Positions 5,474 to 54,456 of a DNA stretch of 64,000 bases are shown one piece after another. Source of the DNA: Sedimenticola sp. (GTDB taxonomy: Bacteria; Pseudomonadota; Gammaproteobacteria; Chromatiales; Chromatiaceae). The stretch spans positions 1-64,000 of the forward strand of contig JAMOLT010000061.1 of NCBI GenBank assembly GCA_027068915.1. Reading direction: 5' to 3'. The first letter of the stretch is position 1, and every line of letters starts with the position of its first letter. The position numbers and the translations under genes are program-made. The notes under the pieces are model-generated. The model was not told the DNA's origin and searched no databases. It saw only the letters and a list, made by a program, of their open reading frames with translations.

Positions 5474-5538
5474 TTTATTCCCTTTCTTATCAGTATTTTT
5501 ACTTTATTTCCTTTCAACGAGTCAAGCATATAGTATCA

Positions 5539-39021: not shown

Positions 39022-41966
39022 CCCTGGAGCTGTCAACACTGTTTACAGCCGGGTTCCTGTACCTGGTATTGCTGTTTCTCATCGCCTATATCACCGACCG
39101 TGGATGGATACCGGAACACTGGGTATCCCACCCCCTGGTGTACACGCTTTCCCTGGGTGTATACGCCACCTCCTGGACCTACTATGGCAGCGTGGGTTTC
39201 GCCAATTCCAGCGGCTATCTGTTTCTGACGATTTATCTGGGCGTCACCCTGGCCTTTGCTCTCAGTCCGGTATTGCTCCGCCCCATACTGCGGCTGACCA
39301 AGGAATACCAGCTCAGCTCCCTGGCGGATCTGTTCGCCTTTCGCTACCGCAGCCAGATGGCCGGTGTGCTGGTTACCCTGTTCATGCTCATCGGCGCACT
39401 GCCTTATATCGCGCTACAGATTCGCGCCGTAACCCAATCCCTGCAGGTGCTCACCCAGGAAGCGCCGCCACATATCCTCGCCCTGGGGTTTTGCATCACC
39501 CTGACCGCTTTCGCCATCCTCTTTGGCGCCCGGCACATCTCTCCCAGGGAAAAGCACCGGGGGCTGGTGATGGCCATCGCCTTCGAATCCCTGGTCAAGC
39601 TGGTGGCCTTGCTGGGGGTGGGCTTCTTCGCACTGTTCGGTATCTTTTCCGGCCCTGAAGGGCTCAACCAATGGCTGACCGAAAACCCCGAGGCCATCCA
39701 GAAGCTCTATGAACCCGTAGGGAGCAGCCAGTGGGGGACCCTGATCTTCCTGTCGTTCGGTGCAGCCTTCCTATTGCCCCGGCAGTTTCATATGCTGTTT
39801 GCGGAAAATCTGCGCGAAGACAACCTGCGGGTGGCCAGCTGGGGCTTTCCTGTATTCCTGCTGCTGCTGAACCTGCCCATCCCTGTCATCCTCTGGGCGG
39901 GCCAGTATCTCGAACTGAGTACAGACCCCGATTACTTCGTGTTGGGCATCACCCTGGCCCAGGGGCATTCCTGGCTGCCCATGATCACCTTTATCGGCGG
40001 AATATCCGCCGCCAGCGCCATGGTCATCATCACCACCCTGGCCCTGTCCTCCATGTGCATGAATCATCTGTTGCTGCCCGCCAGTTATCCCGACCCGAGG
40101 CTGAACCTGTATTACTGGCTGTTGTGGGGACGGCGTCTGCTCATCGGGCTGATCATTCTCGCCGGTTACAGCTTCTATGCATTCCTGGAGCACCGGGCGG
40201 GGCTGGCGCAGCTGGGCCTGATTTCCTTCGTGGCCGTGGTTCAGTTCCTGCCTGGCATCGTGGGCCTGCTGTACTGGCGGCGCGCCACCCGCGAAGGGCT
40301 GATTGCGGGACTGCTGGCCGGAATCTCCATCTGGGCCTTTACCCTGCTATTGCCCATGCTGCAACACTCCGGCTTTATCGAAAACAGCTACCCTCTGGCC
40401 CGGTGGCAGGAAATTGCGGGGCTGGATCACTGGAGTTTCGCCACCTTCTGGTCCTTGAGCTGTAATGCCCTGCTGTTCGCCCTGGTCTCCCTGTTCAGCC
40501 GCCAGCGCAAGGAAGAGCAGCAGACGGCGGACAGTTGTTGCAGCAGCATCTTCGTTCCCCTTACCGGCGTGGTGGCCGCCCGCTCTCCCGATGAATTCAA
40601 GAAAGAGCTCGGCGCGTTGCTGGGCGAGTCCACGGCCAGAAAGGAAGTGGATCGCGCACTCAATGACCTGAACATGCCGCCCACGGAAACCCGGCCTACG
40701 GAGTTGCGCCGCCTGCGCGAGCGCATCGAGCACAATCTCTATGGGCTCATCGGCCCCCAGATGTCGCACCTGATCATCAACCGGCGGCTGGCCCTCGATC
40801 CGGAAGCCCGTACCGCCCTGGCCGATTCCATGCGCTATGTGGAGGAACGTCTGGCGCATTCCCGCTCCCTCCTCCACGGACTGACCCGGGAACTGGACAA
40901 CCTGCAACGCTACCAGAAACAGATCCTGGAAGACCTCCCCCTGGGCGCCTGCGCCCTGGGGCAGGATGGCGAAATCACCATCTGGAACCAGGTAATGGAA
41001 GAATACACGGGCGTTACCGATCAGGTCACCGTGGGCCATCCCCTGCAGCAACTGCCCAAGCCCTGGAATGATCTTCTGGGTGGTTTTGCCCGCGCCTCGG
41101 ACAGCCACAGTTACCACCTGGAAGTGGAATACGCGGGCAAGACACGTTGGTTCAATCTGCACAAGGCGGTGATCGAAGCGCCACAGATCACTACCACCTC
41201 GGAGGCGCCGGGCATGGTGATACTGATGGAGGATCTCACGCAACTGGAGAACCTGGAGGCAGAGCTTGCGCACAGCGACCGCCTGGCCTCCATCGGCCGC
41301 CTGGCCGCTGGCGTGGCCCACGAAATCGGCAACCCGGTGACCGGCATCGCCTCCATTGCACAGAACCTCAAATACGAGGAAGAACCCGCCGCCATCGAGC
41401 AAAGCGCCCGGGACATCCTCACCCAAACGAAGCGTATTACCAGCATCGTCCAGTCATTGATGAACTTCAGCCGCAGCAGCAGTGGCGGCCAGCAATCACT
41501 CCAGCCCGTGGCCCTCGCCAGTATCCTGCAGGATGCCCTGGACCTGGTGCGGCTGGTGCACAAGCGCAAGCTGCTGGACTATCACATCGATTGCGCACCT
41601 GAACTTGTGGTGATGGCGGATCGGCAGCGTCTGGCCCAGGTTTTCGTCAATCTGCTGAACAACGCCAGTGACGCATCCTCCCCGGGGGACAGCATTCACA
41701 TCAGGGCCGGCAGAAATGCATCCCAGGTCATCATAGAAGTCATCGATCAGGGAACGGGCATACCGGAGCATTTTCAACAGCAACTTTTCGAACCCTTCGC
41801 CACCACCAAGGCGACGGGCAAGGGCACCGGCCTGGGGCTGGCCCTGGCGAGAAACATTGTTCTGGATCACAATGGCGAGATCGAAATCACCTCGGCTCCC
41901 CATGCCGGAACCATGGTCATCATACGGCTTCCCGATCCCGGCCAATCTGTCCCTCAGTCGAGGTAA
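39018..41966 (+). CDS. cbrA: CbrA-like transporter-sensor histidine kinase
   Basis: A 982-residue kinase, the usual CbrA length. About 13 helices of the sodium/solute symporter fold cover residues 1-500, followed by a helical linker, a PAS domain (LPLGACALGQDGEITIWNQVMEEYTG), a HisKA domain with the phospho-His in AAGVAHEIGNPVTG, and an HATPase domain (VFVNLLNNASDAS, IDQGTGIP, GKGTGLGLAL). The ATG at 39018 overlaps the small upstream gene. The expected partner is an NtrC-type regulator, found only 12.6 kb away at 54587. The 3' end overlaps the convergent cytochrome gene by 13 bp. Confidence 0.86.
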   Translation: MTLELSTLFTAGFLYLVLLFLIAYITDRGWIPEHWVSHPLVYTLSLGVYATSWTYYGSVGFANSSGYLFLTIYLGVTLAFALSPVLLRPILRLTKEYQLSSLADLFAFRYRSQMAGVLVTLFMLIGALPYIALQIRAVTQSLQVLTQEAPPHILALGFCITLTAFAILFGARHISPREKHRGLVMAIAFESLVKLVALLGVGFFALFGIFSGPEGLNQWLTENPEAIQKLYEPVGSSQWGTLIFLSFGAAFLLPRQFHMLFAENLREDNLRVASWGFPVFLLLLNLPIPVILWAGQYLELSTDPDYFVLGITLAQGHSWLPMITFIGGISAASAMVIITTLALSSMCMNHLLLPASYPDPRLNLYYWLLWGRRLLIGLIILAGYSFYAFLEHRAGLAQLGLISFVAVVQFLPGIVGLLYWRRATREGLIAGLLAGISIWAFTLLLPMLQHSGFIENSYPLARWQEIAGLDHWSFATFWSLSCNALLFALVSLFSRQRKEEQQTADSCCSSIFVPLTGVVAARSPDEFKKELGALLGESTARKEVDRALNDLNMPPTETRPTELRRLRERIEHNLYGLIGPQMSHLIINRRLALDPEARTALADSMRYVEERLAHSRSLLHGLTRELDNLQRYQKQILEDLPLGACALGQDGEITIWNQVMEEYTGVTDQVTVGHPLQQLPKPWNDLLGGFARASDSHSYHLEVEYAGKTRWFNLHKAVIEAPQITTTSEAPGMVILMEDLTQLENLEAELAHSDRLASIGRLAAGVAHEIGNPVTGIASIAQNLKYEEEPAAIEQSARDILTQTKRITSIVQSLMNFSRSSSGGQQSLQPVALASILQDALDLVRLVHKRKLLDYHIDCAPELVVMADRQRLAQVFVNLLNNASDASSPGDSIHIRAGRNASQVIIEVIDQGTGIPEHFQQQLFEPFATTKATGKGTGLGLALARNIVLDHNGEIEITSAPHAGTMVIIRLPDPGQSVPQSR

Positions 41967-44572
41967 TCCAGCTTCTTTTCCCTGCCCCGGGGATCATGGT
42001 AATACTTGTATTTGTACTTGGCCTCACGGCCATGACAGCTGACGCAGAAGCTGTTTCCCGCGCTCTTGCGCCGCAGAAAACTGCTGAATACCGTTCCTTC
42101 CTCATTGCCTTTGTCGTCCTTGCGCGGATTTTCCGGCGCTTTCTTCCCTGGATGCCAGACATGGGGCTCGTGGCAGGTGATGCAGGCAATACGGCCAAAC
42201 TCCGCAACTTCCCCCTGCTCGTTCAACAAGGGCATCACCTTGGGATCGGAACGCAACACCAGATCCTTCCAGGGGTGGGTATAGTCCTTGACGGGCTTTG
42301 CATCCACCTCGTTGTCCTCGTGGTGACAGGCCATGCACAGACGATCCCTGGCGAGCATATCAGATGCGGAATCAGGAGAATATGCCGGCCCGGCGAAAAG
42401 GAAAGGAAACGCCTTCTCGCCGCGGTGCAGGGTATGGCATGCGCCGCACAGCCCCGCTTCCGCGTAGGCTTCCTTGAGACGATTCTTTCGCCCCCGGGGC
42501 TGTTTCCGCAGATCATGATCCGTATCCGCCACTCTTGCCTGATTCTCATGGCAAGCCTGGCACAGCTTGCCGTTCCGATACTCTTCCACCAGCGCCGGGG
42601 TGTTCTTCACACCCTCATGCACGGAATGACAGCTGCGGCAGTCCAGGTGTTCCAGCTTGCGCCCGGCCAGCTCCACCGTCTCCTCCAGTTTTGTGTTTAC
42701 CGGATGAATGCCTTTCTTTCCCGCTTCCTCCTTGTCTTTCGCATTCTGGCGACCGTGGCAGCTTTGGCAAAGGCTGTGCGCATCCTTTCCCCGGGGCAGC
42801 AGGGCCGTCTCCGGCTGGGCATCGTGCACCCGATGGCAGGCCAGGCAATCCAGCCGTTTGATTTTTCTGCCGCCCAGTTCCACTTCTTTCTCCAGCTTCA
42901 GGTCTACGGGGTGAATGCCCTTGCGTCTGGCCTGCTTCTCATCCCGGGAATGCTGGCTCTGGTGGCAGCTCACACACAGCCTTGCCGCTTCCATCCCGTC
43001 CACCAGTAACGACGCCCCTTCTCCACCATGCAGCTGATGGCAGGTCTGACAGATGAGTTGATCCTTACTGCCCAGGCGTGCGCCTCTGGCGGCCAATGAC
43101 GCGGGAAGTCCCTTTTGCAATTCTTCCCGCTGCGCATAACCTTCCCTATCAGCCTCGGGCGGCGCTTTCATGACGATACCCAAGGGGTGGTTCCATACTT
43201 TGGTTTGTTCATCCGCTTTGTCTTGCGCCGTAGTCTGCCGGGAGGCATGGCAGGCAATGCAGAAAGTGCTGTCGGGATTGGCCGTGCGCAACCAGGGATT
43301 GCGCCGCCCTTCTCCCCGTGCTTTGCCGCCTTCGGGCCTGTCATGGGGGGTATGGCAGCTGCCGCAGTAAAGACGCCTGTCTCCGGCAAGGGGATATTCC
43401 GCCGGCACCTCATCCTGCTCGTAGCGCCGCACGTCCCCCGCCGGCTCGCCATCACGCAACAAATGCAGGGTGGGATGCTGGCGCCCCCGGGCAAGGCGAT
43501 GACGGGACTCCACCACTGCGCCATGGTGGCAGCTCATGCACATGCGTTCTTCGGCCACCGGCAATACGCTGGAAACCTGTTGCGGCTCATACCCCGGAAA
43601 CCAGGAAAGATGGCACTGCAGGCAGTTCTTGCGCGAATCCCGGGGAGGCGGTTCCGGCGCATTCCCCTCTTTCTCTTCCCCGCCGGCCGCCAACAGCCGC
43701 ATCACCGAAACACTGTTGTCCGCCATGTCCACGATGTACAGACGATCATTCCAGCGCGCCATGCCCACCGGCATGCGAAACCGCCACGGCTCACCCTTGG
43801 GATTGCGCAACAGACCCCGGGGCTTGCGGTGCTGGAACAGGGTGATCACGCCCGTCCAGGCATCGGATACCAGCACCTGGCCATCCTCCAGCACGACAAT
43901 GCCATTGGGCCGGTACAGGCTGCCGGGGGTTATGCCGAAGCTGCCCATGGCGCCAAACAGATATCCGGTGGCGGAAAACACCTGCACCCGGGCATTGAGC
44001 ACATCCACCGCCATGAGATAGCCGCTGGCGTCTCTGGCCAGCATGTAGGGAAAGCGAAACTGCCCCGGCACTTCTCCCTTGCCGCCCCAGCACTGGGTGG
44101 CGGCTTCTTCATCCAGCACGGTGCGGCAAAGCTTGTGGGCACGCCGGTCAGACCACCAGAGCCTGTTCCCCGCCGGGCGCACCGCCGATGGTTCTACAGG
44201 TGTTTCCCCGGTGAGGGGATGCAGTTCCCGCAGCAGATTGCCTTGCAAATCCATGCTCAGTATTCTCTTCGCCGCCGGATCGGCCACATACAGCCTGGCC
44301 CCTTCCAGGGCGATATCCGTTGCCGGAATCCGGGTGTCTTCCGGCAAGGAAAAGGCTCCTTGTTTTTGCCCCTGAAGATCAAAAACCACCACCCGGCGCG
44401 CCACGCCATCCAGGACAAAGACCCTGCCGTCATCCGCGACGGCCACCGCCGAGGGTTGCTGCAAATCCGCCTGCAGTTGCTGAATGCGCGCCGCAGTGAA
44501 TGCTGCATGGCCAGGCATGCCCCAGAACAGCAGGCCGCCCAGCAACAGGTAGAGCGCTGCCCTTGTCATCAC
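41954..44572 (-). CDS. NHL-propeller multihaem cytochrome c (14 haems)
   Basis: An 872-residue protein with an N-terminal signal peptide (MMTRAALYLLLGGLLFWGM). An NHL-type beta-propeller (repeats such as PSAVAVADDGRVFVLD, FPYMLARDASGYLMAVDV, RPNGIVVLEDGQVLVSDA, MPVGMARWNDRLYIVDM) fills the first 300 residues. The rest has 14 CXXCH haem motifs: CLQCH, CMSCH, CGSCH, CIACH, CQTCH, CVSCH, CLACH, CQSCH, CRSCH, CQACH, CGACH, CMACH, CITCH, CVSCH. A unit beginning GIHPV and ending in CHxVH occurs twice. It should be periplasmic or surface-exposed; the propeller may bind a partner. It is the last gene of the cluster, overlapping its neighbour by 4 bp. Confidence 0.9.
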   Translation of the reverse strand: MMTRAALYLLLGGLLFWGMPGHAAFTAARIQQLQADLQQPSAVAVADDGRVFVLDGVARRVVVFDLQGQKQGAFSLPEDTRIPATDIALEGARLYVADPAAKRILSMDLQGNLLRELHPLTGETPVEPSAVRPAGNRLWWSDRRAHKLCRTVLDEEAATQCWGGKGEVPGQFRFPYMLARDASGYLMAVDVLNARVQVFSATGYLFGAMGSFGITPGSLYRPNGIVVLEDGQVLVSDAWTGVITLFQHRKPRGLLRNPKGEPWRFRMPVGMARWNDRLYIVDMADNSVSVMRLLAAGGEEKEGNAPEPPPRDSRKNCLQCHLSWFPGYEPQQVSSVLPVAEERMCMSCHHGAVVESRHRLARGRQHPTLHLLRDGEPAGDVRRYEQDEVPAEYPLAGDRRLYCGSCHTPHDRPEGGKARGEGRRNPWLRTANPDSTFCIACHASRQTTAQDKADEQTKVWNHPLGIVMKAPPEADREGYAQREELQKGLPASLAARGARLGSKDQLICQTCHQLHGGEGASLLVDGMEAARLCVSCHQSQHSRDEKQARRKGIHPVDLKLEKEVELGGRKIKRLDCLACHRVHDAQPETALLPRGKDAHSLCQSCHGRQNAKDKEEAGKKGIHPVNTKLEETVELAGRKLEHLDCRSCHSVHEGVKNTPALVEEYRNGKLCQACHENQARVADTDHDLRKQPRGRKNRLKEAYAEAGLCGACHTLHRGEKAFPFLFAGPAYSPDSASDMLARDRLCMACHHEDNEVDAKPVKDYTHPWKDLVLRSDPKVMPLLNEQGEVAEFGRIACITCHEPHVWHPGKKAPENPRKDDKGNEEGTVFSSFLRRKSAGNSFCVSCHGREAKYKYKYYHDPRGREKKLDYLD

Positions 44573-45288
44573 TCCAGCAGATCCCTGATATGAATGCGCC
44601 GCACAGGCTCATCCGCCGACCGGGGCTCCGTGCGTTCGATGAATCTGGCGGTGGGGTTGAGTTCCAGCTCTCTTGCCCGCTGCGGCTTGTAGCCCAGCAA
44701 TCCATAGTCCAGCAGAGCATCTTCGTTCCCATGGCAGGCGCCGCAACCCGGCCCTTTCTCTCTCAGGGGGTGGTGCAGTTTCGCCTTGATTTCAACCTTT
44801 CCCGCCTCATCGGCTTCTTCCCATTGCTGCTTCAATACGCGCGCCCAGGGAATGCTTTCCGCAATCAGAACCGGCTCACCTTTCAGGCGGGGCACAATCA
44901 TGCCCCGGGCATGACTGCTGCCCGGAACCTGCATCCAGGCATACGCCAGTTGCTCGCCCTCGGGCCACCAGTGACAGGTCTCACAGGAAATATAGCGGCT
45001 GTGCATATTGAGAAAGGCCCGCTTGCGCGCATTGCTGCGGTGTGGGTTCTGCTGGTGGCAACTGCGGCAAAAGGTTGCAGGCAGGGCTTGGGCATCCTTT
45101 CTCTTGTGAAATGGCGGAACAAACAGGGGAGTCTCGACAGCCTCGGGAGAGGATTTCTCCAATTGTTCCTTTGCCCGCTGCAGTTCCGCGGCATCCGGCT
45201 GGGCCTGATCCATCTCCTGCACCAGGGGATTGGCCAGGGCGATAGAAGCAGCCAGGAAATAGAGGAACAGGAAACGGCGGATGATCAT
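44569..45288 (-). CDS. Trihaem cytochrome c
   Basis: A 239-residue exported protein with a signal peptide (MIIRRFLFLYFLAASIALA) and three haem sites: CRSCH, CETCH and CGACH. A segment YISCETCHWWPEGEQLAYAWM and several His and Met may supply distal ligands. I do not recognise the family. It overlaps both neighbours by 4 bp (45285-45288 and 44569-44572), so its level is tied to theirs. It is probably a periplasmic shuttle between the inner-membrane protein encoded upstream and the 14-haem protein. Confidence 0.85.
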   Translation of the reverse strand: MIIRRFLFLYFLAASIALANPLVQEMDQAQPDAAELQRAKEQLEKSSPEAVETPLFVPPFHKRKDAQALPATFCRSCHQQNPHRSNARKRAFLNMHSRYISCETCHWWPEGEQLAYAWMQVPGSSHARGMIVPRLKGEPVLIAESIPWARVLKQQWEEADEAGKVEIKAKLHHPLREKGPGCGACHGNEDALLDYGLLGYKPQRARELELNPTARFIERTEPRSADEPVRRIHIRDLLE

Positions 45289-47468
45289 TTTTTCTTCCCC
45301 TTCAGAACGACCCGGGATTTCTTGCCCCTGCGATCAGGCATTTCCAGCATGCGCCGTCGAAATACGCCGCCGCCCAGGGCGGAATAGACCTTTCCCTTGA
45401 CCGGACGGGCAAACAGGTTGCCCAGCAACCAGACCACCAGCATCAATGCCGTCAGCGCCACCAAGACCACCATTGCCCGCGCCCAGTTGGAATCCGCATC
45501 AAAACCCTCCGGCAGCGCAGGCAGGCGTTCCGGCTTCATCTCCAGCAGCACCGGCGTCAGATCCATATCATGCATGTCGGTATACAGGAAACCCCGGTTT
45601 GCATCATTCCCGGCATAGCTGTGACAAGCTTCGGCCGCGCAGGTCTTGGCCAATGTTTCCTTGTGCGTGGAAGCGCCCGGCTTCTCATCTTCCTGGATCT
45701 TGTGCTGCAACCCGGCCGGGGCATGACAGTCCAGGCAGGAAGCGCCGGATTCCCGCCCTGCAGCGATGAGGCGGCCATGCAGGGTCAGGTCATAGCTGGC
45801 ATTTGCGAGTACAAAGCGGGGGGATGCGGGTTCCGGTTGCTCTCTTCCCGCCTCCCGCTCCACCTTGCTCATGCGCGCCCGGTCGCCATGGCATTTGGCG
45901 CACATCCGGTTGCCTTCTTCCTTGGTCCAGCGCCCGCCGAGCAGGCGGCGCAGAATATGGCCGGTGTAGCGTTGCCGCCAGACATCATCCTTGTGGCAGT
46001 TGCCGCAGGCCTCCTCACTGTGCTGGAACAATTCCCGGAAGCGAGGCATCTGCACCTCGCTGATGTAACCGGTATTGCTGTGGCACAACCGGCAGGAGGG
46101 ATTGGCATCCTTCACCGACTCCTCCAGGCGGTTGTTGCCGGTGAAACCCTTGCTGCGCCCTTGTCGATGAACAGAGGCCTGCATTTCCTCGGCGACTTCC
46201 TTGTGGGTATAGGCGGCGCCTTCCGAAGGTTCTTCCAGGTGGCATTCGGCGGCGCAATCCACGCCCTTGTCCTCCTTGTGGGGAAAGTAGCGGATTTCGG
46301 CGTGACAGTCGCTGCAAGGCACATTGCCATGCAGGGAGGCGGCATAGTGATCCCGGTCGATGGTCAGATCACGGGACAAACCCTGGTCATTGACAAACTC
46401 CAGCCCCGGCAGGCTGTGACATACCAGACAGCCGTCCGGATCCATCTGTCTCGGCGCGGCGCTCGCCGTCTGGCTCCATACCAGCAACCCCAAAGCCAGC
46501 AGTAACAACAGCAGCAGCACCCGGCTGCGCAGAAAGCTGTCCTTGCCCGGTTTGTGCAGGGCGATCCATTCGGGCAGGGGATGAAACTCCACATCTTTCT
46601 TCTTGCGCTTGTGACGGATTTCCGGCGGCACGGTAAGCCAGTCGATAGCGCCCCAGTCGCAAACATCGGCGCATTCGTGGCAGGACATGCAGGAAAGCTG
46701 ATCCACCACCGCAATCTTGTCCACCATGGTGATGGCGCCGCACATGCACTTGCGGGCGCATTCGTTGCAGCCGGTGCAGCGGTTGCGCTCCACCCGGATG
46801 CGCCGGGTAAAGCGGAATTTCGATCCCAGGCGATTCACCAGGGCATCGATGGCGCCAATGGGACACAGAAAGGAGCAGTATGCCCTGCCCTTGTTGGCGA
46901 ACACTCCAAGCAACAGCACCAGCCCCAGATTGACCATCCCCACGGTGGTAACGAGAAAGGCGACGCCCCGCCAGTCGCCGCTGAAGGCCTGGAAGATGCG
47001 CGGCACGGTAATGAAGTTGCACAGGGTGCAGGCGCTCACCCCCAGCATGGGCATGAGCAACACAAAGGTGAGAAAGTAGCCATAGCGGATCGGCACCTGA
47101 GGCAGCCAGCGGTATTCCAGCTTCCAGCGCTCGCCGGTTACGCGGCTGGCCAGTTCCGGGACGCCGCCCATGGGACACAGATAGGAACACCAGATGCGGC
47201 CGAAGAAAAAGGTGGTTACCAGGATGAAGGCGAGAAAGCCCGCGCCAATGGCGGCCACACTGAGCTGGCTGAGAAAATCCTCCCAGGTCATGCCGGGAAA
47301 ATACAGATAGAAACGCCGCATGCACAAAGGCCCGCACAGATCCGGATTGCCAAACAGGGAGGGAATCAGGGTAAAGGGCGCCAGCAACAGCAGCGTGGCC
47401 AGAACGATGAGCGTATAGCGGTATTTCTGCCCTGCCGGAATATTTTTCAGTCTGTGGAAGAGTTTCAT
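45285..47468 (-). CDS. NapH-like polyferredoxin fused to multihaem cytochrome
   Basis: A 727-residue inner-membrane protein. Residues 1-215 have about five helices with the NapH/NosR/CcoG CX3CP motifs CSYLCP and CSFLCP. Two [4Fe-4S] motifs follow, CTGCNECARKC and CMSCHECADVC (the CMSCH is part of the second cluster). A helix near 320 (VLLLLLLLALGLLVW) precedes a periplasmic domain with six CXXCH sites (CLVCH, CSDCH, CRLCH, CGNCH, CAKCH, CLDCH), one CX3CH (CAAECH) and one CX4CH (CAAEACH). A final helix and basic tail end the protein. It could pass electrons between the quinone pool and periplasmic cytochromes. Confidence 0.87.
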   Translation of the reverse strand: MKLFHRLKNIPAGQKYRYTLIVLATLLLLAPFTLIPSLFGNPDLCGPLCMRRFYLYFPGMTWEDFLSQLSVAAIGAGFLAFILVTTFFFGRIWCSYLCPMGGVPELASRVTGERWKLEYRWLPQVPIRYGYFLTFVLLMPMLGVSACTLCNFITVPRIFQAFSGDWRGVAFLVTTVGMVNLGLVLLLGVFANKGRAYCSFLCPIGAIDALVNRLGSKFRFTRRIRVERNRCTGCNECARKCMCGAITMVDKIAVVDQLSCMSCHECADVCDWGAIDWLTVPPEIRHKRKKKDVEFHPLPEWIALHKPGKDSFLRSRVLLLLLLLALGLLVWSQTASAAPRQMDPDGCLVCHSLPGLEFVNDQGLSRDLTIDRDHYAASLHGNVPCSDCHAEIRYFPHKEDKGVDCAAECHLEEPSEGAAYTHKEVAEEMQASVHRQGRSKGFTGNNRLEESVKDANPSCRLCHSNTGYISEVQMPRFRELFQHSEEACGNCHKDDVWRQRYTGHILRRLLGGRWTKEEGNRMCAKCHGDRARMSKVEREAGREQPEPASPRFVLANASYDLTLHGRLIAAGRESGASCLDCHAPAGLQHKIQEDEKPGASTHKETLAKTCAAEACHSYAGNDANRGFLYTDMHDMDLTPVLLEMKPERLPALPEGFDADSNWARAMVVLVALTALMLVVWLLGNLFARPVKGKVYSALGGGVFRRRMLEMPDRRGKKSRVVLKGKKK

Positions 47469-47474
47469 CTCGGT

Positions 47475-48413
47475 TCAATCATCAAAGGAGTGACAGGCGC
47501 GGCACAGACTGCCATCCCTGGCGGGAAGGCGCATCAATACTTCCGCCGCCAGGCGCCGGTATTGCAGCGTCACGGGCCTGCCCAGTTTCTTTTCAAGTTC
47601 AGGCAGGCGTTCTTCCTTGTCCGCCTGATAAATGGGGCTCCAGCGGCTGGGCAGGTATTCCGGTCCCTCCTCCACGCCTCGATCCGCCGTTTGCCGCCCC
47701 GCCGGGTGCTGCGGATCGATTACGCCTTTTTCATGGGGGCTGTGGCAGGTCACGCAGGTGACATGCCCTTTGCCGTCCAGGGGGAGAATGATTCCGTGCT
47801 CCTTCTCCGCGGCCTGTATGTTTTCCAGCATCTTTTCCTCCACCTTGCGGCTATGGGCCAGCGCATTGAGATGGGGCGTCTTCAGATGGCAGCCCAGGCA
47901 GATGCGCTCCACGGGCAGGCGCAGCTCCACCTCATCGCGTTCGGGCGGGTGCTCGCGATCCGGCGTCTCGCGATGACAGTAGTTGCAGGTTTCCTCCCTG
48001 GGCGCGCCCTTCTCGTCGAGCTGCACATGAATGTTCAGGCGTTGATAGGGCTTTTCGTCATGACACTGAAAGCAGAATGCATCCAGCTTCTTCCAGGGAC
48101 CGCCACGCAGAAAATCTTCGGCTTCCACATCGATATCTTCCCTGCGTTTGTCCTCCAGGTCTTCGATTCCGTGGCAGGTGGCGCAGGTCAGCCTGCCCTT
48201 GTCGTCGGCGCGCATGCCATCCGGCAAGGTCATGCTCTCAGGAATGGCCACTGCCACGGGATGATGCCGGGAAGACAGCTCCAGGGCATGCCCGGATGTC
48301 GCCAGCAACAGGCAGAAAAGCATTGTTAACCCGGCAGCGCGTTTTGCCTGCACACGGCGCCTTGTTCCGCTGCATGCTTGAAGCCCTGAATACGACATAT
48401 ATTGTTGCCGCAT
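47475..48413 (-). CDS. Hexahaem cytochrome c
   Basis: A 312-residue exported protein. The ATG at 48413 begins just after the stop of the upstream gene (48415-48417), and the membrane-targeting helix is GLTMLFCLLLATSGHA. Earlier in-frame Met codons lie inside that gene. Six haem sites are present: CATCH, CFQCH, CNYCH, CLGCH, CVTCH and CRACH. The order of the His-rich segments (HHPVAVAIPESMTLPDG at the start, TCVTCHSPHEKGVIDPQHP later) resembles a doubled NrfB-like fold, but I cannot assign the family. It directly precedes the NapH-like fusion. Confidence 0.83.
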   Translation of the reverse strand: MRQQYMSYSGLQACSGTRRRVQAKRAAGLTMLFCLLLATSGHALELSSRHHPVAVAIPESMTLPDGMRADDKGRLTCATCHGIEDLEDKRREDIDVEAEDFLRGGPWKKLDAFCFQCHDEKPYQRLNIHVQLDEKGAPREETCNYCHRETPDREHPPERDEVELRLPVERICLGCHLKTPHLNALAHSRKVEEKMLENIQAAEKEHGIILPLDGKGHVTCVTCHSPHEKGVIDPQHPAGRQTADRGVEEGPEYLPSRWSPIYQADKEERLPELEKKLGRPVTLQYRRLAAEVLMRLPARDGSLCRACHSFDD

Positions 48414-48414
48414 G

Positions 48415-49359
48415 TCAGAGTCCGGCCTGCCCCGCCAGCCCGTGGGCATGGCAGTCCCGGCAGTCTCCCCAGGCCTGATGTACGCCGGACAGGCCATTGC
48501 CCGTATCCAGTTGCGAGTCCTGCCCGGTGCGTTCCATTTGATGGCAGAGCACGCAAAGCTGCGCATACTCCCCGTTGCCCGTCCACACGGGGATGTTATC
48601 CAGACCCAGGGCGGGATCCAGGCGGGAAACGCCCTTGGCGGAATTGTCGATGATCAGCCCGGTGTTTTCCGTACCATGCATGGCATGGCAATCGGTGCAG
48701 TCCACACGGGAGGAATACTCGTAGCCATCACGCAACCCGGTGTAAGTGCCGTCTCCACCGCGACGATGGCCGTGAAAATCAATGAAGTTGTAGTTGTCTT
48801 CCATGGCGATGAGGGGGGCGCGCCAGTGCCTGTCCCCTATCTCAAAGCCGGAAATCTGATGATCCCGATTGTGGCAGCGCAGGCAGAAATCGGCGCTGGA
48901 GAAATAGGGGCTCATGAGTTTCTGCGCATCGGGAAACAGGGTCAGATCCTGGCGCACCTGGAAATCGCCATCCATGTCGGAATCGTCATGACAGGCGACG
49001 CAGGCCGCGTCTCCCGTCCGTTGGGGAAACTCATGCTGGAAACGCCCGTCACGGTGGGGCATGGCGGGAAGATCCGACGAATTGTGGCAGATCTCGCAAG
49101 GACGCTCCCGCCCGGTGCCGTTGTCCCCGTGGCAGCCCATGCAACTGGCGTACCCCTTGTCCTGAACGATGGCGCGTATATTTCCGGCCTGGGGCCGTTG
49201 ATGAATGCGGCGCAGGACATGGCAGGCGGCGCATTCCTCCAGCTTCCAGGCGGCGCCATCGTCATGATTGCGATCCAGCAGCAGACTTTGCGCCGGCGCA
49301 GGCTGCCACCACAGCAGCATCAGCCCCAACAGCAGGCAGGGGTATCTGTTCAGTCTCAT
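48415..49359 (-). CDS. Octahaem cytochrome c
   Basis: A 314-residue exported protein with a signal peptide (CLLLGLMLLWWQPAPAQ, cleaved after Ala). Eight haem sites occur: CAACH, CMGCH, CEICH, CVACH, CLRCH, CTDCH, CVLCH and CRDCH. Other His include HGHRRGGDG and GVHQAWGDC. I chose the ATG at 49359 because it overlaps the upstream stop as ATGA and gives the signal peptide; the long frame upstream has none. The family was not recognised. It is adjacent to a smaller heptahaem protein and the porin-like gene, as expected of a porin-cytochrome complex. Confidence 0.85.
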   Translation of the reverse strand: MRLNRYPCLLLGLMLLWWQPAPAQSLLLDRNHDDGAAWKLEECAACHVLRRIHQRPQAGNIRAIVQDKGYASCMGCHGDNGTGRERPCEICHNSSDLPAMPHRDGRFQHEFPQRTGDAACVACHDDSDMDGDFQVRQDLTLFPDAQKLMSPYFSSADFCLRCHNRDHQISGFEIGDRHWRAPLIAMEDNYNFIDFHGHRRGGDGTYTGLRDGYEYSSRVDCTDCHAMHGTENTGLIIDNSAKGVSRLDPALGLDNIPVWTGNGEYAQLCVLCHQMERTGQDSQLDTGNGLSGVHQAWGDCRDCHAHGLAGQAGL

Positions 49360-49955
49360 GGGCCTATCTCCCGGTGGCAATCGAAACAGTAGGAAGGATT
49401 GTGGCAGCTGCTGCATTTCTGCGGATCCATGCGCGCCTCCAGACCGTGGGACAGGCGGTATCCCAAACCATGTTCCCGGTGGCTGGCGGCGTCCCGCCGA
49501 AAATGGCAGTCCACGCAGTAGTTCAGATCCAGGTGGCAGCTGCTGCAGGCGCGTTCGTCCTCCAGGGCGTCCGGTCCGTGCAGACGCACATAGTCGAGGT
49601 CGTGATCCCTGGGCCAGATTTTTTTCGGATCCGGATGACACAGGCGGCATTCCGTGGGGGCGCTGCGGTCTTCCACATGGCAGGAATGGCAAATGGCTTC
49701 CAGGGGTTCATTCGCCACCGCACTCATTTCCCCGACGGCTTCGGGATCGGTTTCGTCGATCTTGCCGAAAGGATGACAGGCCAGGCAGAGGACGCCGGAT
49801 TCCTCCATGGCCTGATCATGGGCATTGTGGGGAAAATACAGCGCCGGACGCTGGTCGACGCGTTTTTCCCACCAGCGCTTTTCCTCCGGTGCATCTCCTG
49901 CAACCACCATCAGGGACAACAGACTCAACAAAATGACAGACGAGATATGTTTCAT
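49356..49955 (-). CDS. Heptahaem cytochrome c
   Basis: A 199-residue exported protein with a signal peptide (KHISSVILLSLLSLMVVAG). Seven haem sites are packed into about 150 residues: CLACH, CHSCH, CRLCH, CSSCH, CVDCH, CSSCH and CFDCH. This density resembles a wire-like cytochrome of the NrfB/MtrA kind. It starts inside the stop of the beta-barrel gene (ATGA, 49952-49955), as MtrA-like proteins usually sit next to their barrel. That makes it the best candidate for the haem chain inside the pore. This is inference. Confidence 0.87.
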   Translation of the reverse strand: MKHISSVILLSLLSLMVVAGDAPEEKRWWEKRVDQRPALYFPHNAHDQAMEESGVLCLACHPFGKIDETDPEAVGEMSAVANEPLEAICHSCHVEDRSAPTECRLCHPDPKKIWPRDHDLDYVRLHGPDALEDERACSSCHLDLNYCVDCHFRRDAASHREHGLGYRLSHGLEARMDPQKCSSCHNPSYCFDCHREIGP

Positions 49956-51250
49956 CGGTAGTCCTCCGCGCCCCGCGCCGGCAGTTGATACACCAGACGC
50001 AGGCCAAACCGAACCTGGTTGTAGTCTTCCCAGCGGCCGCTGGAACGCGCCAGCTCCAGCATGGAGCGCAGACGCAGATCCCGGCTCCACATCCAGTCCA
50101 GACGCACTTCCCCGGCAATCACGGTTCTGCTGCCGTCGAGACGGCTGTACTCGTTTCTGGCGGCTGCATTCAACTCCAGCAGCAGGCGGCTGTTCAGGGG
50201 ACGCCGGTAACCCGCGAGCAAACCACCCGCATGCTCGCCGTCCCCCGCCAGCCATTCCATGCGCCCTTCCACAGTGGCGCCATTCGGCAACTTCCAGTTG
50301 AGGGTCAGATCCGCTCCCGCACCGTCCACTCCCTCTTCCCGGGCAATGGCGCGCAGGTTCGCGCCCCAGGTGAGAGTTTGGCTGTAGCGCCCCTGGTAAC
50401 CTCCCTCCACCACCGTCTGACTGCCCCTGGCGTAATAGCCATAGTAGCGGTCGGCAAAGGTGACAGGTGCTTCCGGCGGGTCATAACGGCGCCCCCTGAG
50501 CAGCAGTTGACTGTAACCATCGAGACGCATGCGCGCCTGGGCATCGAAGCTTTCCAGGCCAATACCATCCGTATCCAGCACCATGGCGGCGGACAGTTCC
50601 ACCGGCGGCAGATCCGCCACGGGCAACCAGTTCCCGGAAAAACTGCCATCCAGCTTCCATGTATCGACGCCGGACCAGTGATAGCGCATGCCCAGCCCGA
50701 TGCTGGAGTTGTCCAGCCAGTCCAGATGCGCTGTATCCAGGGGGCAACTCATGCGCACGCCCGTCATGTATTTGCTTTCCGGCTTGTCCATTCCGTCGTT
50801 GCCACCATCGGGAATGAAATACAGCTCGGTGCGCCGGGGTTTGCCGGCAAACCACTCCCACTGTCCGCCTTTGGCATCCCGCCAACGCAGGTCTAGGCCG
50901 TCCAGGGTGGAATAGCCGGCAGTGCCGATATGCTCGAAACGGCCAGCTTTTGCTTGCAGCTTGTTGTCGAAGAAGTCTTTTCCCAGGTACAGGCGATGCA
51001 GATTCATCCAGCTTTCCAGCCGGGAAGCGCCGTAATTGCCCAGCAGGCCCCAGGTCAGACTGTCATCACGGCTGCGATAGTCCAGATTGAGCCATTGCTC
51101 CACATGGTTGCCGGAATCGAAATAGCTGTCCGACTGAAAACGGGTTTCCAGGCTGCCGCTCCAGGCGGCGTACACGGGCTTCGCCACCACTACAGCGGCA
51201 AACAGCAGCACCACCCGCAAACAGGCAGAGGAATAGTGATACGAAGGCAT
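49952..51250 (-). CDS. Outer-membrane beta-barrel (porin-like)
   Basis: A 432-residue protein with a signal peptide (CLRVVLLFAAVVVAKPVYA). The mature part is rich in alternating hydrophobic and polar residues and aromatic belts (LETRFQSDSYFDSG, LDYRSRDDSLTWGLLGNYG, RLVYQL), with a C-terminal FGLRLVYQL strand near the end, all signs of a transmembrane barrel of about 20 strands. The last residues (PARGAEDYR) follow the final strand. No haem motif is present. It sits between a small Cys-rich gene and a heptahaem gene, the standard context of porin-cytochrome conduits such as MtrAB or MtoAB, but the sequence is not recognisably MtrB. Confidence 0.75.
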   Translation of the reverse strand: MPSYHYSSACLRVVLLFAAVVVAKPVYAAWSGSLETRFQSDSYFDSGNHVEQWLNLDYRSRDDSLTWGLLGNYGASRLESWMNLHRLYLGKDFFDNKLQAKAGRFEHIGTAGYSTLDGLDLRWRDAKGGQWEWFAGKPRRTELYFIPDGGNDGMDKPESKYMTGVRMSCPLDTAHLDWLDNSSIGLGMRYHWSGVDTWKLDGSFSGNWLPVADLPPVELSAAMVLDTDGIGLESFDAQARMRLDGYSQLLLRGRRYDPPEAPVTFADRYYGYYARGSQTVVEGGYQGRYSQTLTWGANLRAIAREEGVDGAGADLTLNWKLPNGATVEGRMEWLAGDGEHAGGLLAGYRRPLNSRLLLELNAAARNEYSRLDGSRTVIAGEVRLDWMWSRDLRLRSMLELARSSGRWEDYNQVRFGLRLVYQLPARGAEDYR

Positions 51251-51265
51251 GAAAACGAAATACGG

Positions 51266-51484
51266 CTACACATCTTCCCCGGAGCCGGTCAGCTTTTTCT
51301 GACGCCACAGCGCCCAACCAGCCAACCCGGCCAGCGCAACCATACAACCACCGCAAACCGAGCAGCGACCGGTACTGGTTACGGAACAACCGCCACCACC
51401 CGCCAGGGCAATTTGCGACAGCGCCATCCCTGCACCGATACATCCCGCCTGCAACGCAGACTTCAGCTTCTTCTTTTTATGCAT
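51266..51484 (-). CDS. Small Cys-rich membrane protein
   Basis: A 72-residue protein. It starts with a basic stretch and a hydrophobic segment (MHKKKKLKSALQAGCIGAGMALSQIALA), then a Gly/Cys region GGGGCSVTSTGRCSVCGGC, and a second hydrophobic helix (MVALAGLAGWALW) with a basic end (RQKKLTGSGEDV). The upper start at 51538 lies inside the terminator, so I use 51484. I do not recognise the family. Four closely spaced Cys (GGCSV, RCSVCGGC) could bind metal or form disulfides. It lies between the terminator of the octahaem gene and the porin gene. Confidence 0.6.
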   Translation of the reverse strand: MHKKKKLKSALQAGCIGAGMALSQIALAGGGGCSVTSTGRCSVCGGCMVALAGLAGWALWRQKKLTGSGEDV

Positions 51485-51495
51485 GGACAAGCTCC

Positions 51496-51527
51496 AAAAA
51501 AAACCTGCCTCCACAATGGGAGGCAGG
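51496..51527 (-). terminator. Rho-independent terminator after the octahaem gene
   Basis: On the minus strand, CCTGCCTCC and GGAGGCAGG form a perfect 9-bp GC-rich stem with a 6-base loop (pairs 51519-51527 with 51504-51512), followed by eight T (51496-51503). It lies 17 bp after the stop of the 927-residue octahaem gene and 12 bp before the next gene. It should stop or attenuate transcription into the rest of the cluster. Confidence 0.92.
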
Positions 51528-51544
51528 TACAGGCTCAACGGGGA

Positions 51545-54328
51545 TTAGCAGTTTTCCGGCAATGTACAGGTGGCGACGACTGCGCCCTTGCTGTCGGCAA
51601 TGGCAAAGTGGCCAAGATCCACCGTGCGGATGACCACATAGCCAGCCAGGCCATCGTGGGCCGGCTTGACAGCCAGGATGTCGTCAGAACCCAGATTGCT
51701 CCAGTTCTTGCCGTCCAGGGAATGCAGGATCTGCAACTTGCCGGCAGTGTTGAAAGCACCCCGGTACGGCAGGGTCACCAGCATTTCCACATCCAGCAAG
51801 CCATTGATGACATCACCCTCGGAATTGATGACTTCAACCACCAGCACATCGGAAGCCAGCTTACTGCCCTTGTCGGCCACGGCCTTGGCGGCATCTGCAG
51901 GATTCGCGCCATCCTTCACTTCCGCCAGGGAGGCGCGGAAGCTGGTATAGGGCATAATCATATCCAGCACAAAACCGGATCGGGTCATGACGCTGATGCT
52001 GCGGATGGGAGCGACACCGTAATTCGGCCTGAAGAGATAGGTGTCTTCACCCGACAGCTCGTCCATCACCACCTTGCGGTACGCTTCATCCCAGATGCCG
52101 GCCTTGTTGACAGCCTTGGTCATTGAATACAGCTGCGCGATACCGCGCTGGGAAGGCGCAATTTCGTTATTCAGGCGGGTCATGGATGGATTCACCAGGC
52201 TGTAGTAGAGGATATCCTCCACAGTCACGGTTACAGTGCCTTCCTCGTCCACTTTCATGTACGGCATATCCAGAATCACCAAGCCATCTTCCACCATTTT
52301 TGGATCAGGCAGGGTGGTGATTTCCTTCACATTGCCAGTGCCCAGGATGCTGTCCGGCGCCACCAGAGAACTGATTACGCCATTGCTCTTGCGGTTGTGG
52401 CAGCTCTCGCATTCCAGCGCCTCTGTGGAAGGCCGGGTGTTGTGCGACATGAGATAGTGATTGATTTCGGTCCATACCATAGCCACATCCGGATTGGGTA
52501 CGCCTTTGCCGGCCAGTAGCTTGTCATAGATTTTCTTCAACGCCTTGAAGCCTTCATAGGTTTCCGGATCACCGTAGCGCAAGCTGCCATGGGAGATGCG
52601 TGCGGAGACTTCCAGCACCACTTCCCCTGTATCCGGATCCTTGACCTGACCCACTTCGGTACCATCTTCTTTTATCACATGCTCAAACACGCTGTTGCGC
52701 TCTGTTTTCGTAAGCACCCGGTCATTGTTTTTGTCTTTCCAGAAATAGCGTGCCCGCGGGTTATACGGAACCATGCGCAACTTGCCATCCTCTTCCCGGC
52801 GGTATTGATAGAGGATTTGTAGTTCGCGCCCACGGTTTTTCTTGTTGGTGATATGGCAGGCCTGACAGGAAACCTCATCCAGATGGGTCTGGGTGATGCT
52901 CTCCAGTTCATCTTTTGAATAACCGCGCAGGTCGCCACCAAATTTCCACAACGCCAGGTGCGCTTCCGCCATGTTCTTGTGACCGGAAGGGGAAATCGGC
53001 GCCGGGCCGGTATCATGACAGTAGAGGCAGGATTTTGCCTGGGGCTGAAAGTCCCGGTTGTCCTGCACGTTCATGTCCGAGTTACCCTTGAGGAAGTTGT
53101 GATCCGCATCCAGATCCACGCTTTCCCAGGATTCCCGGTAGTAGTTGCGGGCATGGCAGGCATTGCAGCTCTGGATTTCCCGCGATTCGCCATTGGCTTC
53201 GGTAAAGATCTTGCCGAAGTGAACATCATCCTTGTAGTCATCGACGATCATGCCGTCTTCGTCATACACCGCGGCAGCATCCTCACCGAAACCATAGTAG
53301 CCGCGGCGGGAATTGCTGGTACTGTGACATTGCATGCAGGTGTCATTGGGAGGAAAACCCATCATGGGGATGGATACCTTGCCATCCTTGTCGAACGCTG
53401 CCGGGTTCCAGGTCAGGCGCGGCTTGCCATCCTTATTCAGATCCAGCTCGTACTCCACATCCATGCCATGGCGCCCTTCTTCCACGACAATATTTTTCTT
53501 GGCCACGGTCACCAGGTTGGTATCCTTGTTGACGCCTTCGGGATGCCTGATATTCAGGTATTCCAGTATCGCCGTAGCGTTGTAGCGAAAAAGGCCTTTG
53601 TCGATCATATTGTCACGACGCAGCGTTCTCCACAGGTCATAGCCATCCGGCCCGTCTTCCACTTCAAGCCGCTTGTCAAATGCCTGCAGGCGACTCTGGT
53701 CGATATGGCACATCAGGCAGTCATTTTCCACCACGCCGCTTTTCTTCCAGTCCCACTGGGCAACCACACTGGAATCGACAACCTTGTTTTCGGAATTGGT
53801 GCCACGATTATAGTAATCGCCATCAAAACGCTTCACGGTTTTGGGATCCACCTCATCGTAGCGACGCCCCTGGCGATCTTTTTCCATCCAGCCACCACCA
53901 CTGTGGCAACCCTCACAGCGCATGATGATGCCCGCTGCTCCATAGTCGGCAAAATCATCTGCGGAAGCATTGTCCTTCTTTGCCAGCTGCTCAGGATTGT
54001 TGCTGCCCATGCAATTGTATCCACCAAAATATCCGGGGCCGACCAGTTGCGGCAAGCCGATTCTGGCACCGTAGCTGTCATCGGTTTCATCTCTGCCCTG
54101 TTCAATATGAAAAGAGTGGGTAATGGACTCATAATCATGGCACTGGCCGCAGCTGGTGCGGGGACTGTACGGCTCACCGCTTTTCAGCACATGCTTGCCT
54201 GCTTCATCCAGTAGTGGAATAGCCGGATGCAATGCTTCTTTATCCACCGACTGTCCCCAAGCAGGAGCAATTGCCGTAGCCATAATTATCATCAACGCCC
54301 CTATGGACATTCGCCGCACTATTTTCAT
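51545..54328 (-). CDS. Large octahaem cytochrome c
   Basis: A 927-residue exported protein with a signal peptide (GALMIIMATAIAPAWG). Eight haem sites are spread over the first 630 residues: CGQCH, CEGCH, CLMCH, CMQCH, CNACH, CLYCH, CQACH and CESCH. The wide spacing and long linkers (90 to 150 residues) are unlike wire-like cytochromes and suggest an enzyme or a surface electron-transfer protein. The C-terminal 300 residues have no haem and look beta-rich (DVEMLVTLPYRGAF, VIRTVDLGHFAIAD). ATG at 54328 has GGGGAAAG upstream. A sigma-54 promoter precedes it and a strong terminator follows it, so it can be expressed apart from the rest. I cannot assign a named family. Confidence 0.87.
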   Translation of the reverse strand: MKIVRRMSIGALMIIMATAIAPAWGQSVDKEALHPAIPLLDEAGKHVLKSGEPYSPRTSCGQCHDYESITHSFHIEQGRDETDDSYGARIGLPQLVGPGYFGGYNCMGSNNPEQLAKKDNASADDFADYGAAGIIMRCEGCHSGGGWMEKDRQGRRYDEVDPKTVKRFDGDYYNRGTNSENKVVDSSVVAQWDWKKSGVVENDCLMCHIDQSRLQAFDKRLEVEDGPDGYDLWRTLRRDNMIDKGLFRYNATAILEYLNIRHPEGVNKDTNLVTVAKKNIVVEEGRHGMDVEYELDLNKDGKPRLTWNPAAFDKDGKVSIPMMGFPPNDTCMQCHSTSNSRRGYYGFGEDAAAVYDEDGMIVDDYKDDVHFGKIFTEANGESREIQSCNACHARNYYRESWESVDLDADHNFLKGNSDMNVQDNRDFQPQAKSCLYCHDTGPAPISPSGHKNMAEAHLALWKFGGDLRGYSKDELESITQTHLDEVSCQACHITNKKNRGRELQILYQYRREEDGKLRMVPYNPRARYFWKDKNNDRVLTKTERNSVFEHVIKEDGTEVGQVKDPDTGEVVLEVSARISHGSLRYGDPETYEGFKALKKIYDKLLAGKGVPNPDVAMVWTEINHYLMSHNTRPSTEALECESCHNRKSNGVISSLVAPDSILGTGNVKEITTLPDPKMVEDGLVILDMPYMKVDEEGTVTVTVEDILYYSLVNPSMTRLNNEIAPSQRGIAQLYSMTKAVNKAGIWDEAYRKVVMDELSGEDTYLFRPNYGVAPIRSISVMTRSGFVLDMIMPYTSFRASLAEVKDGANPADAAKAVADKGSKLASDVLVVEVINSEGDVINGLLDVEMLVTLPYRGAFNTAGKLQILHSLDGKNWSNLGSDDILAVKPAHDGLAGYVVIRTVDLGHFAIADSKGAVVATCTLPENC

Positions 54329-54410
54329 TTTTTCTTTCCCCTGGTTTGATTTTTCAGGCTCAGCATTGCTCCCGGGCATGCTGAACCCGTACTTCTGGTC
54401 AGGAAGACAT

Positions 54411-54426
54411 GGCAACATTGATGCCA
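54411..54426 (-). promoter_or_regulatory. Sigma-54 promoter of the cytochrome cluster
   Basis: On the minus strand, TGGCATCAATGTTGCC matches the -24/-12 consensus TGGCAC-N5-TTGC with exact GG to GC spacing. The transcription start would fall near 54399, about 70 bp before the octahaem ATG. Such promoters need an NtrC-type activator; one is encoded divergently at 54587. A 14-bp palindrome (54457-54470) upstream may be an activator site. Confidence 0.72.
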
Positions 54427-54456
54427 AACCAAAGTGTTTTCACGATATCAACGACT

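Follow-up and report, generated by a model that had tools for sequence, protein, structure and literature searches.

A nine-gene multihaem cytochrome operon of Sedimenticola, a probable conduit for extracellular electron transfer shared with methanotrophs

The subject of this study is a cluster of nine genes in the genome of the gammaproteobacterium Sedimenticola sp. (assembly GCA_027068915.1, here designated G000; 2.83 Mb, 99.99% complete). The cluster lies on contig C61 (JAMOLT010000061.1), whose positions 1 to 64,000 constitute the analysed stretch of DNA, referred to below as the window. An initial annotation, made from the letters of the window, regarded the cluster as a putative trans-envelope electron conduit with about 54 haems. 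We describe the proteins of this operon, their conservation and the electron path that they could form.

The nine genes and their products

The genes, called g1 to g9 in the order of transcription, form a minus-strand block running from 54328 to 41954 and either overlap or are separated by short gaps. The open reading frames (ORFs) of the block extend over 41954-54427 of the minus strand.

51545..54328, minus strand: g1, octahaem cytochrome of 927 amino acids with 8 CxxCH, a signal peptide and a C-terminal ZU5-like beta domain; putative cell-surface cytochrome of the MCA0424/MCA0426 type
51266..51484, minus strand: g2, small Cys-rich membrane protein of 72 amino acids (19-sequence alignment)
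49952..51250, minus strand: g3, predicted outer-membrane beta-barrel of 22 strands (AlphaFold2 model)
49356..49955, minus strand: g4, heptahaem cytochrome with 7 CxxCH, about 180 amino acids when mature; proposed barrel plug
48415..49359, minus strand: g5, octahaem cytochrome with 8 CxxCH; proposed outer-membrane relay
47475..48413, minus strand: g6, hexahaem periplasmic cytochrome with 6 CxxCH
45285..47468, minus strand: g7, inner-membrane NapH-like polyferredoxin with four transmembrane helices, followed by a transmembrane helix, a periplasmic octahaem part and a C-terminal transmembrane helix (motifs, domains, hydrophobicity)
44569..45288, minus strand: g8, trihaem periplasmic cytochrome with 3 CxxCH
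41954..44572, minus strand: g9, exported NHL propeller fused to a 14-haem cytochrome (NHL match, 14 CxxCH)

The ORFs confirm the nine minus-strand genes of the initial annotation. Starts were chosen by eye for g1 (ATG at 54328, not TTG at 54427), g2 (ATG at 51484), g4 (ATG at 49955), g5 (ATG at 49359) and g6 (ATG at 48413).

Seven of the nine genes code for multihaem cytochromes. The haem-binding motif CxxCH is found 8, 0, 0, 7, 8, 6, 7, 3 and 14 times in g1 to g9, respectively. One of the motifs of g7, located at residue 260 (CMSCH), falls within a ferredoxin domain and is excluded from the haem sites. The same protein contains two atypical sites, CX3CH and CX4CH, whose proximal histidine is conserved in 22 of 22 aligned sequences, which gives 6+2 = 8 haems. 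The total of 54 haems is thus made up of 52 CxxCH motifs outside the ferredoxin domain together with one CX3CH and one CX4CH, and the earlier series of 8, 7, 8, 6, 8, 3 and 14 haems agrees with these counts. No other stop-to-stop frame in the whole 64-kb window contains two or more CxxCH motifs.

The remaining parts named in the initial annotation, that is a NapH-like inner-membrane fusion, an NHL-propeller cytochrome, a barrel and a small Cys-rich membrane protein, were recovered as well. Residues 1-275 of g7 match Fer4_5, ferredoxin domains and a NapH-like family in Pfam and NCBIfam; the match to TIGR02163 (NapH) reaches 69.4 bits, below the curated cut-off of 213.05, and the protein is accordingly termed NapH-like only. 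Its hydrophobicity plot shows four helices in the NapH half, a fifth leading into the haem part and a sixth close to the C-terminus. The NHL repeats of g9 are recognized by Pfam (E 1.1e-10) and match NHL structures as well. The other matches in these databases are to haem domains of a general kind.

Neither g2 nor g3 has a match in Pfam or NCBIfam. An invariant C-x7-C-x2-C-x2-C pattern precedes the hydrophobic stretch of g2 in all 19 aligned sequences; this stretch exceeds the threshold of the plot, and an earlier one is weaker. Two of the 19 members match the FeoB_associated family weakly (best E 0.00042), and a role of g2 in the handling of clusters or haems is possible. The gene is present in every locus that spans its position. 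The AlphaFold2 model of g3 is a barrel of 22 strands with a mean pLDDT of 87.2. The 50 fold matches listed for this model (Z 16.5-20.2, rmsd 3.3-6.2) are mostly TonB-dependent receptors and ushers; MtrB is not among these 50, which is no evidence either way.

Sequence searches of the PDB with profiles of g3 and g4 gave no match, and g4 alone retrieved only weak matches to c7 cytochromes (best E 0.019). By simple arithmetic, the 22-strand barrel would be 38-44 A wide at the backbone, and for g4, with its seven haems, a width of 28 A gives a length of about 48 A. Because of these dimensions, g4 could be seated inside g3 as a membrane-spanning plug, as judged from size and not from a model of the complex. 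A barrel unable to hold a haem protein, which the initial annotation had named as grounds for abandoning the conduit, was not encountered, g3 being wide enough by this estimate.

In the model of g1, the region of about residues 699-890 (the C-terminal 200 residues of the protein encoded at 51545-54328) resembles the ankyrin ZU5 domain and the related FIIND/GAIN domains (Z 9.4, 132-133 residues aligned, rmsd 3.4-3.5). Searches of PDB sequences with g1 alone and with a g1 profile returned no match.

Conservation and distribution of the operon

A scan with g7 of one genome per species yielded 22 loci, which were fetched for comparison. The carriers belong to Sedimenticola, Chromatiales, unclassified Gammaproteobacteria, Methylothermaceae, Methylococcaceae and Methyloprofundus, and include one further bacterium and a methanotrophic symbiont of Bathymodiolus. 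All nine genes are found in identical order and on the same strand in 13 of the 22 loci (in L023 and L035 the contig ends within g9), and the full order is also present in six further genomes (G029, G034, G068, G245, G500 and G535). The other nine loci are cut short; that of the mussel symbiont (L038), on a truncated contig, retains g6-g9. A divergent g1 is seen in L043, and L034 has the frame of g5 split in two.

The number of haems per gene is nearly constant across the relatives: 7 in g4, 8 in g5, 6 in g6, 6+2 in g7, 3 in g8 and 12-18 in full-length g9. Orthologues of g1 have 8 haems, mostly as seven CxxCH and one longer motif, and the Methylococcus-type copies have the seven CxxCH alone. 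In Sedimenticolaceae and several other carriers g7 is a single gene; in methanotrophs and one further gammaproteobacterial clade it is split into a NapH-like gene followed by a 6+2-haem gene. In the g1 tree, 13 rows with split g7 and 12 rows with fused g7 lie on opposite sides of one branch of moderate support (88/90); three further rows, assigned to neither state, fall on the fused side.

With a g1 profile at E 1e-10, the order has 16 carriers among 210 genomes, a sample of the class 7 among 369 (the genome of the window included) and a sample of the phylum 1 among 398 (the genome of the window only). Eight of 38 genomes carry g1 in the family of G244, a genome described below, and 8 of the 15 listed in the genus of the window, where some non-carriers are incomplete. 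Because of this distribution, the operon, as read from sequence, is a patchy trait that occurs as a unit.

Some side observations concern single loci. In a Methylothermaceae locus (L040), 4766-5815 between g1 and g2 encodes an additional protein that begins like a signal peptide and has a single CxxCH. A frame entering the contig end of L025 (1-1101) has 10 CxxCH and seemingly joins the end of g4 to g5, through either fusion or sequence error. Elsewhere in the genome of the window (G000:C4; L046, 7314-12288) a 9-haem protein fused to cytochrome b561 is located near an 8-haem Multi-haem_cyto protein; in many genomes of the family, ORFs close to it in length (approximately 650-700 amino acids) match the haem part of g7.

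One version of the gene set brings physiological background with it. The operon of Methylococcus capsulatus that begins with MCA0424 is described as 11 genes with eight multihaem cytochromes, 58 CxxCH and the beta-barrel MCA0427; MCA0424 and MCA0426 were detected in the surface fraction, the cytochrome transcripts are up in copper-limited cells, and a sigma-54 site and a FUR box are predicted upstream of MCA0424 (PMC4831470). Its authors called electron transfer to the exterior highly plausible in 2015, the function itself being a proposal in that account (PMC4831470). For M. capsulatus Bath, reduction of ferrihydrite and a formate-dependent anodic current, stronger when the cells are starved of copper, are reported (PMC6281684).

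Four genomes of one genus (G244, G976, G977 and G978) contain 11 genes with eight cytochromes and 7+7+7+8+6+6+3+14 = 58 CxxCH, in the order g1, g2, g1, barrel, 7-, 8- and 6-haem proteins, NapH-like protein, 6(+2)-haem protein, 3-haem protein and NHL+14-haem protein. Profile searches recovered the parts of the set, from a g1-type cytochrome through g2, the barrel and the further cytochromes to the NHL+haem cytochrome, in one common order in the window, in G976, G977 and G978, and in G244 on two overlapping stretches. A barrel profile built without these four genomes found the barrel in each of them, and the barrel of G244 fits the barrel alignment with E 2e-54. Since gene count, order and haem count agree, it is near-certain that this 11-gene version is the MCA0424-type operon. 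In G244 two large proteins with 9 and 8 CxxCH stand ahead of the tandem g1 genes (L075, 2523-8906), at the position taken in M. capsulatus by the c553o genes MCA0421 and MCA0423; this likeness is one of position.

Electron path, alternative readings and regulation

A haem ligated by two histidines serves electron transfer and as a rule binds no substrate; catalytic multihaem enzymes leave one site open or use a lysine. Invariant histidines outside the haem motifs were counted in the alignment of each cytochrome with its relatives. Their number equals that of the haems in g1 (8 for 8; the 8 proximal histidines are invariant too; 17 sequences), g4 (7 for 7; 21 sequences), g6 (6 for 6; 23 sequences) and g9, where 12 accompany the 12 haems conserved in all 18 sequences, one of them in the NHL part. 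The haem part of g7 has 10 for 8 haems (22 sequences) and g8 has 4 for 3 (21 sequences). Because extra invariant histidines match the haems in most of the set, most of its cytochromes look like wires and not enzymes.

The set might instead consist of separate haem-rich periplasmic enzymes, turning over nitrite, tetrathionate or thiosulfate for example. The g1 protein does score 30.6 bits against the octahaem tetrathionate-reductase model, with 18 of 18 homologues matching at E up to 1, and 37.8 bits against the MtrC-type model; moreover, g1 passes the Pfam score of Cytochrome_C554, and g5 narrowly that of NapC/NirT (25.3 against a gathering score of 24.1). These values of g1 are nevertheless far below the enzyme-level cut-offs of 375 bits (tetrathionate reductase) and 209.3 bits (MtrC-type), and no enzyme model exceeds its curated cut-off among the matches listed from Pfam and NCBIfam. 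The histidine counts of g1, g4 and g6 are unlike those of catalytic multihaem enzymes, and the barrel and the NapH-like part accompany the cytochromes in every locus with the full set. Separate known enzymes, a further outcome that would have spoken against the initial annotation, were not encountered, and on the missed family cut-offs and the histidine counts we reject this very improbable reading.

About half of the family bears signals for surface anchoring. Of the 18 g1 orthologues aligned, 8 finish with a Gly-rich stretch, a hydrophobic helix and a mostly basic end, resembling GlyGly-CTERM, and a ninth (L026) has a JDVT-CTERM-like tail. These tails were called by eye, support from hidden Markov models (HMMs) being weak: the GlyGly-CTERM HMM matches 1 of the 18 members (E 0.023), the SVAGG model one member (E 0.0076) and the JDVT-CTERM HMM one of 18 (E 2.8e-9), a member that the tool does not identify. 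The C-terminal domain of the nine tailed orthologues contains an HFS triplet (by eye), which is missing from g1 of the window; HFS is the autocleavage site of some animal domains of the ZU5/FIIND/GAIN type.

All 8 genomes whose g1 has a GlyGly-type tail contain a rhombosortase that exceeds the cut-off, as do 2 of 9 without (Fisher p 0.0019, uncorrected for descent); only matches over the cut-off count here, as weaker ones occur in most genomes and in 14 of 14 controls. A lipobox is present in 14 of 30 g5 genes, 13 by pattern and one (L076) by eye. In the loci of the same 18-sequence g1 alignment it occurs in 9 of 9 with a g1 tail and in 0 of 9 without, so that the predicted anchors of g1 and g5 co-occur. 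A type II secretin match was found in 14 of 14 genomes examined and lies over the cut-off in 13, G000 included; the model also picks up related secretins below its cut-off.

Conserved synteny, constant haem numbers, the extra histidines, the anchor signals on half of the orthologues, the modelled barrel of 22 strands and the surface location reported for two g1-type proteins of Methylococcus all support the trans-envelope conduit of the initial annotation. We propose that the operon very probably encodes a conserved conduit for extracellular electron transfer, and estimate the probability that this conduit is complete, from the inner membrane to the surface, at about three in four. The NapH-like half of g7 would take electrons from the quinol pool via its iron-sulfur clusters and pass them to its own periplasmic octahaem part. 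From there, g8 and g6, possibly with g9, would shuttle them across the periplasm to g4, the putative heptahaem wire inside the 22-strand barrel g3. Outside, g5 and the surface cytochrome g1 would complete the path to an acceptor beyond the cell, for example Fe(III) or Mn(IV) oxide or a conductive mineral. The exported g9 could be periplasmic or external. Sulfur oxidation may supply the electrons, because the genome contains dissimilatory sulfite reductase (DsrA, of the oxidising or the reducing type; 557 bits, over the cut-off).

Several points weigh against this proposal. Anchor signals are lacking in g1 and g5 of the window, as well as in the copies of its genus and of the aligned methanotrophs. 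The tail-bearing genomes are partly close relatives, and the association of tail, lipobox and rhombosortase is uncorrected for descent; in G105, which has a tail, the type II secretin match does not reach the cut-off. In g5 the extra invariant histidines number 7 for 8 haems, one short (21 sequences), and it is by their invariance that all such histidines are candidate ligands. The structure model of g1 is poor (pLDDT 60.8), only its C-terminal domain being usable. The match to the MCA0424 operon is one of gene count, order and haem count, and the gene deleted in M. capsulatus was MCA0421, which adjoins the operon, the current being lowered and not abolished (PMC6281684). The function in Sedimenticola itself, the relay order, the haem protein in the barrel, the direction, the donor and the acceptor are what we infer, the relay steps from the anatomy of the set.

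The direction of flow had been left open by the initial annotation. Proteins of the NapH type act as quinol dehydrogenases that supply the periplasm with electrons, and multihaem wires can conduct both ways. Because g7 is NapH-like and a bacterium with a matching operon gives outward current (PMC6281684), flow from the quinol pool outward is most likely. The same conduit could operate inward: Fe(II), iron sulfide, a mineral wall that conducts or a partner cell would then be the electron source, with entry through g1, g5 and g4 and delivery by g7 to the quinone pool. Such a reversal, which we consider unlikely, would fit the bidirectional nature of the wires and the vent-field mussel symbiont (so described in its database record) among the carriers. 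It would also recall the Uet conduit, likewise with a porin and NHL proteins, which comes from cathode-oxidising Tenderiales (PMC10734462). Against it stand the NapH-type module and the outward current, and g7 matched no b-haem inner-membrane family of the kind present in PCC3/PCC4.

It is also conceivable, and less probable still, that surface reduction frees metals for uptake or adjusts redox balance under copper or iron limitation, without serving respiration. The induction of the M. capsulatus operon by copper limitation and its predicted FUR box (PMC4831470) would agree with such a role, as would the weak FeoB-associated matches of two g2 members. However, the conserved block contains no transporter gene, and a quinone-linked inner-membrane module with 54 haems would be a heavy investment for assimilation alone.

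The neighbourhood of the operon offers the following candidates for its regulation.

54411..54426, minus strand: sigma-54-like -24/-12 element TGGCATCAATGTTGCC, score 13.5 of 15.5, about 85 bases upstream of the g1 ATG
54587..55927, plus strand: NtrC-type sigma-54 activator (Sigma54_activat E 9.7e-73), divergent, outside the conserved block; possible regulator
38916..41966, plus strand: sensor histidine kinase (HisKA/HATPase_c) with a long hydrophobic N-terminal half, convergent, outside the conserved block

Both strands of the 64 kb contain 24 sigma-54 sites scoring at least 13. Sites of this score are located near the g1 start also in L022, L023, L050, L029, L039, L040 and L042, that is in 8 of 18 stretches with the window included, against about 1.5 expected from the window-wide rate, an expectation that does not allow for the base composition of each locus or for the kinship of relatives. 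Among the fetched loci, many of them with short flanks, a close homologue of the activator occupies the same place only in L022, and the same is true of the kinase.

Relation to known conduits

The MtrCAB, MtoAB and PioAB conduits would work alike, with a barrel, a haem plug and a surface cytochrome. They differ from the operon of the window in that its barrel is not recognized by MtrB_PioB, in that it has no MtrA-type decahaem protein and in that its inner-membrane module belongs to the same operon. MtrB_PioB (PF11854) has no match in G000 and none among 20 barrel homologues, and an MtrB-type barrel was rejected on this ground. In the 20 carrier genomes, G099 and G101 match over the cut-off elsewhere and G245 weakly, below it; the search evidently works, because two of the 20 match strongly. 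The decahaem model TIGR03508 (MtrA/DmsE; cut-off 192.2) does not match g4 and gives 30.2, 26.6 and 21.9 bits with g5, g6 and g8, respectively, and g1 stays below the cut-off of the OmcA/MtrC model TIGR03507. Likeness to these conduits extends to PF22113 (the MtrC/MtrF haem domain, gathering score 30), which g1 (32.4), g5 (35.3) and g9 (68.1) all pass. This domain does not single out surface cytochromes, since two proteins of the cluster described next pass it too.

This second cluster of Sedimenticolaceae, system B, is found in L044 and L047 (G034) and in L045 and L052 (G085). Its genes code for 6+2- or 7+1-haem, 8-haem and 3-haem proteins, a separate NHL protein and a 24-haem cytochrome, and include homologues of g6, of the haem part of g7, of g8 and of both g9 domains. 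In place of NapH it has cytochrome b561 (confirmed in L044 and L052); g3 finds no match in it at E 1e-4, and g4 only a weak one, inside the 24-haem protein of L044. The two halves of g9 are carried by system B as separate genes.

Uet also combines a porin, several multihaem proteins and NHL domains in one cluster, in which a peptidyl-prolyl isomerase, three trihaem proteins, an undecahaem protein and separate NHL proteins are described (PMC10734462). The operon of the window has one trihaem and no undecahaem protein by haem counts and no isomerase by Pfam, the comparison being one of composition and not of sequence homology. PCC3 and PCC4 likewise include an inner-membrane protein along with porin and cytochromes; it is described as having five helices, being probably of the b-haem type and containing two HX13H motifs (PMC5566968). 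The corresponding protein of the window resembles NapH, has iron-sulfur clusters and carries haems in a fused part, and g7 matched Fer4_5 and NapH-type models and no cytochrome b family (the HX13H motif itself was not searched). A porin-cytochrome cluster of Methylobacter, similarly proposed for electron export by a methanotroph, differs in being a four-gene, MtrAB-type cluster that includes two monohaem proteins (PMC13322032).

We tentatively suggest, as a view somewhat short of even odds, that the operon represents a distinct conduit family, which thiotrophic Gammaproteobacteria and methanotrophs would have in common as one unit. Its barrel would lie outside the MtrB family, and electrons would enter from quinol by a NapH-haem module of its own. 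The nine-gene set was not found in sulfur oxidisers, or as a family, among the papers listed by the literature searches, many subscription papers being outside their coverage. If the suggestion holds, sulfur oxidisers could respire solid minerals with electrons from sulfur in one cell and with no OmcB- or Mtr-type parts, which would add a path to the sulfide-to-iron-oxide respiration known from PMC12545173. The gene set would let the whole path from quinone pool to surface be recognized in genomes missed by searches for MtrB-type barrels; in 18 of the 20 carriers examined no such barrel exceeds the cut-off. Solid-phase respiration by thiotrophic Gammaproteobacteria and marine methanotrophs, the mussel symbiont included, thereby becomes testable in cultivable relatives.

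As read from the genomes that agree with its published numbers of genes, cytochromes and CxxCH, the MCA0424-MCA0433 operon likewise has a barrel, a NapH-like protein, g2 and cytochromes in the same order; by position, MCA0428 would be its g4-like gene. It differs in having two g1 genes, each with 7 CxxCH, a split g7, 11 genes and 58 CxxCH, whereas the window has one g1 with 8, a fused g7, nine genes and 52 CxxCH with two atypical sites; its host, judged by its relatives, is not in a methanotroph genus, unlike Methylococcus. The statement of the initial annotation that it recognised no named system of this composition was nearly right, except that the set matches the M. capsulatus operon (PMC4831470). 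The nine-gene fused form is a variant of the set noted in that one methanotroph, and that operon, to which no function was assigned when it was noted in 2015, is linked here to a conserved family.

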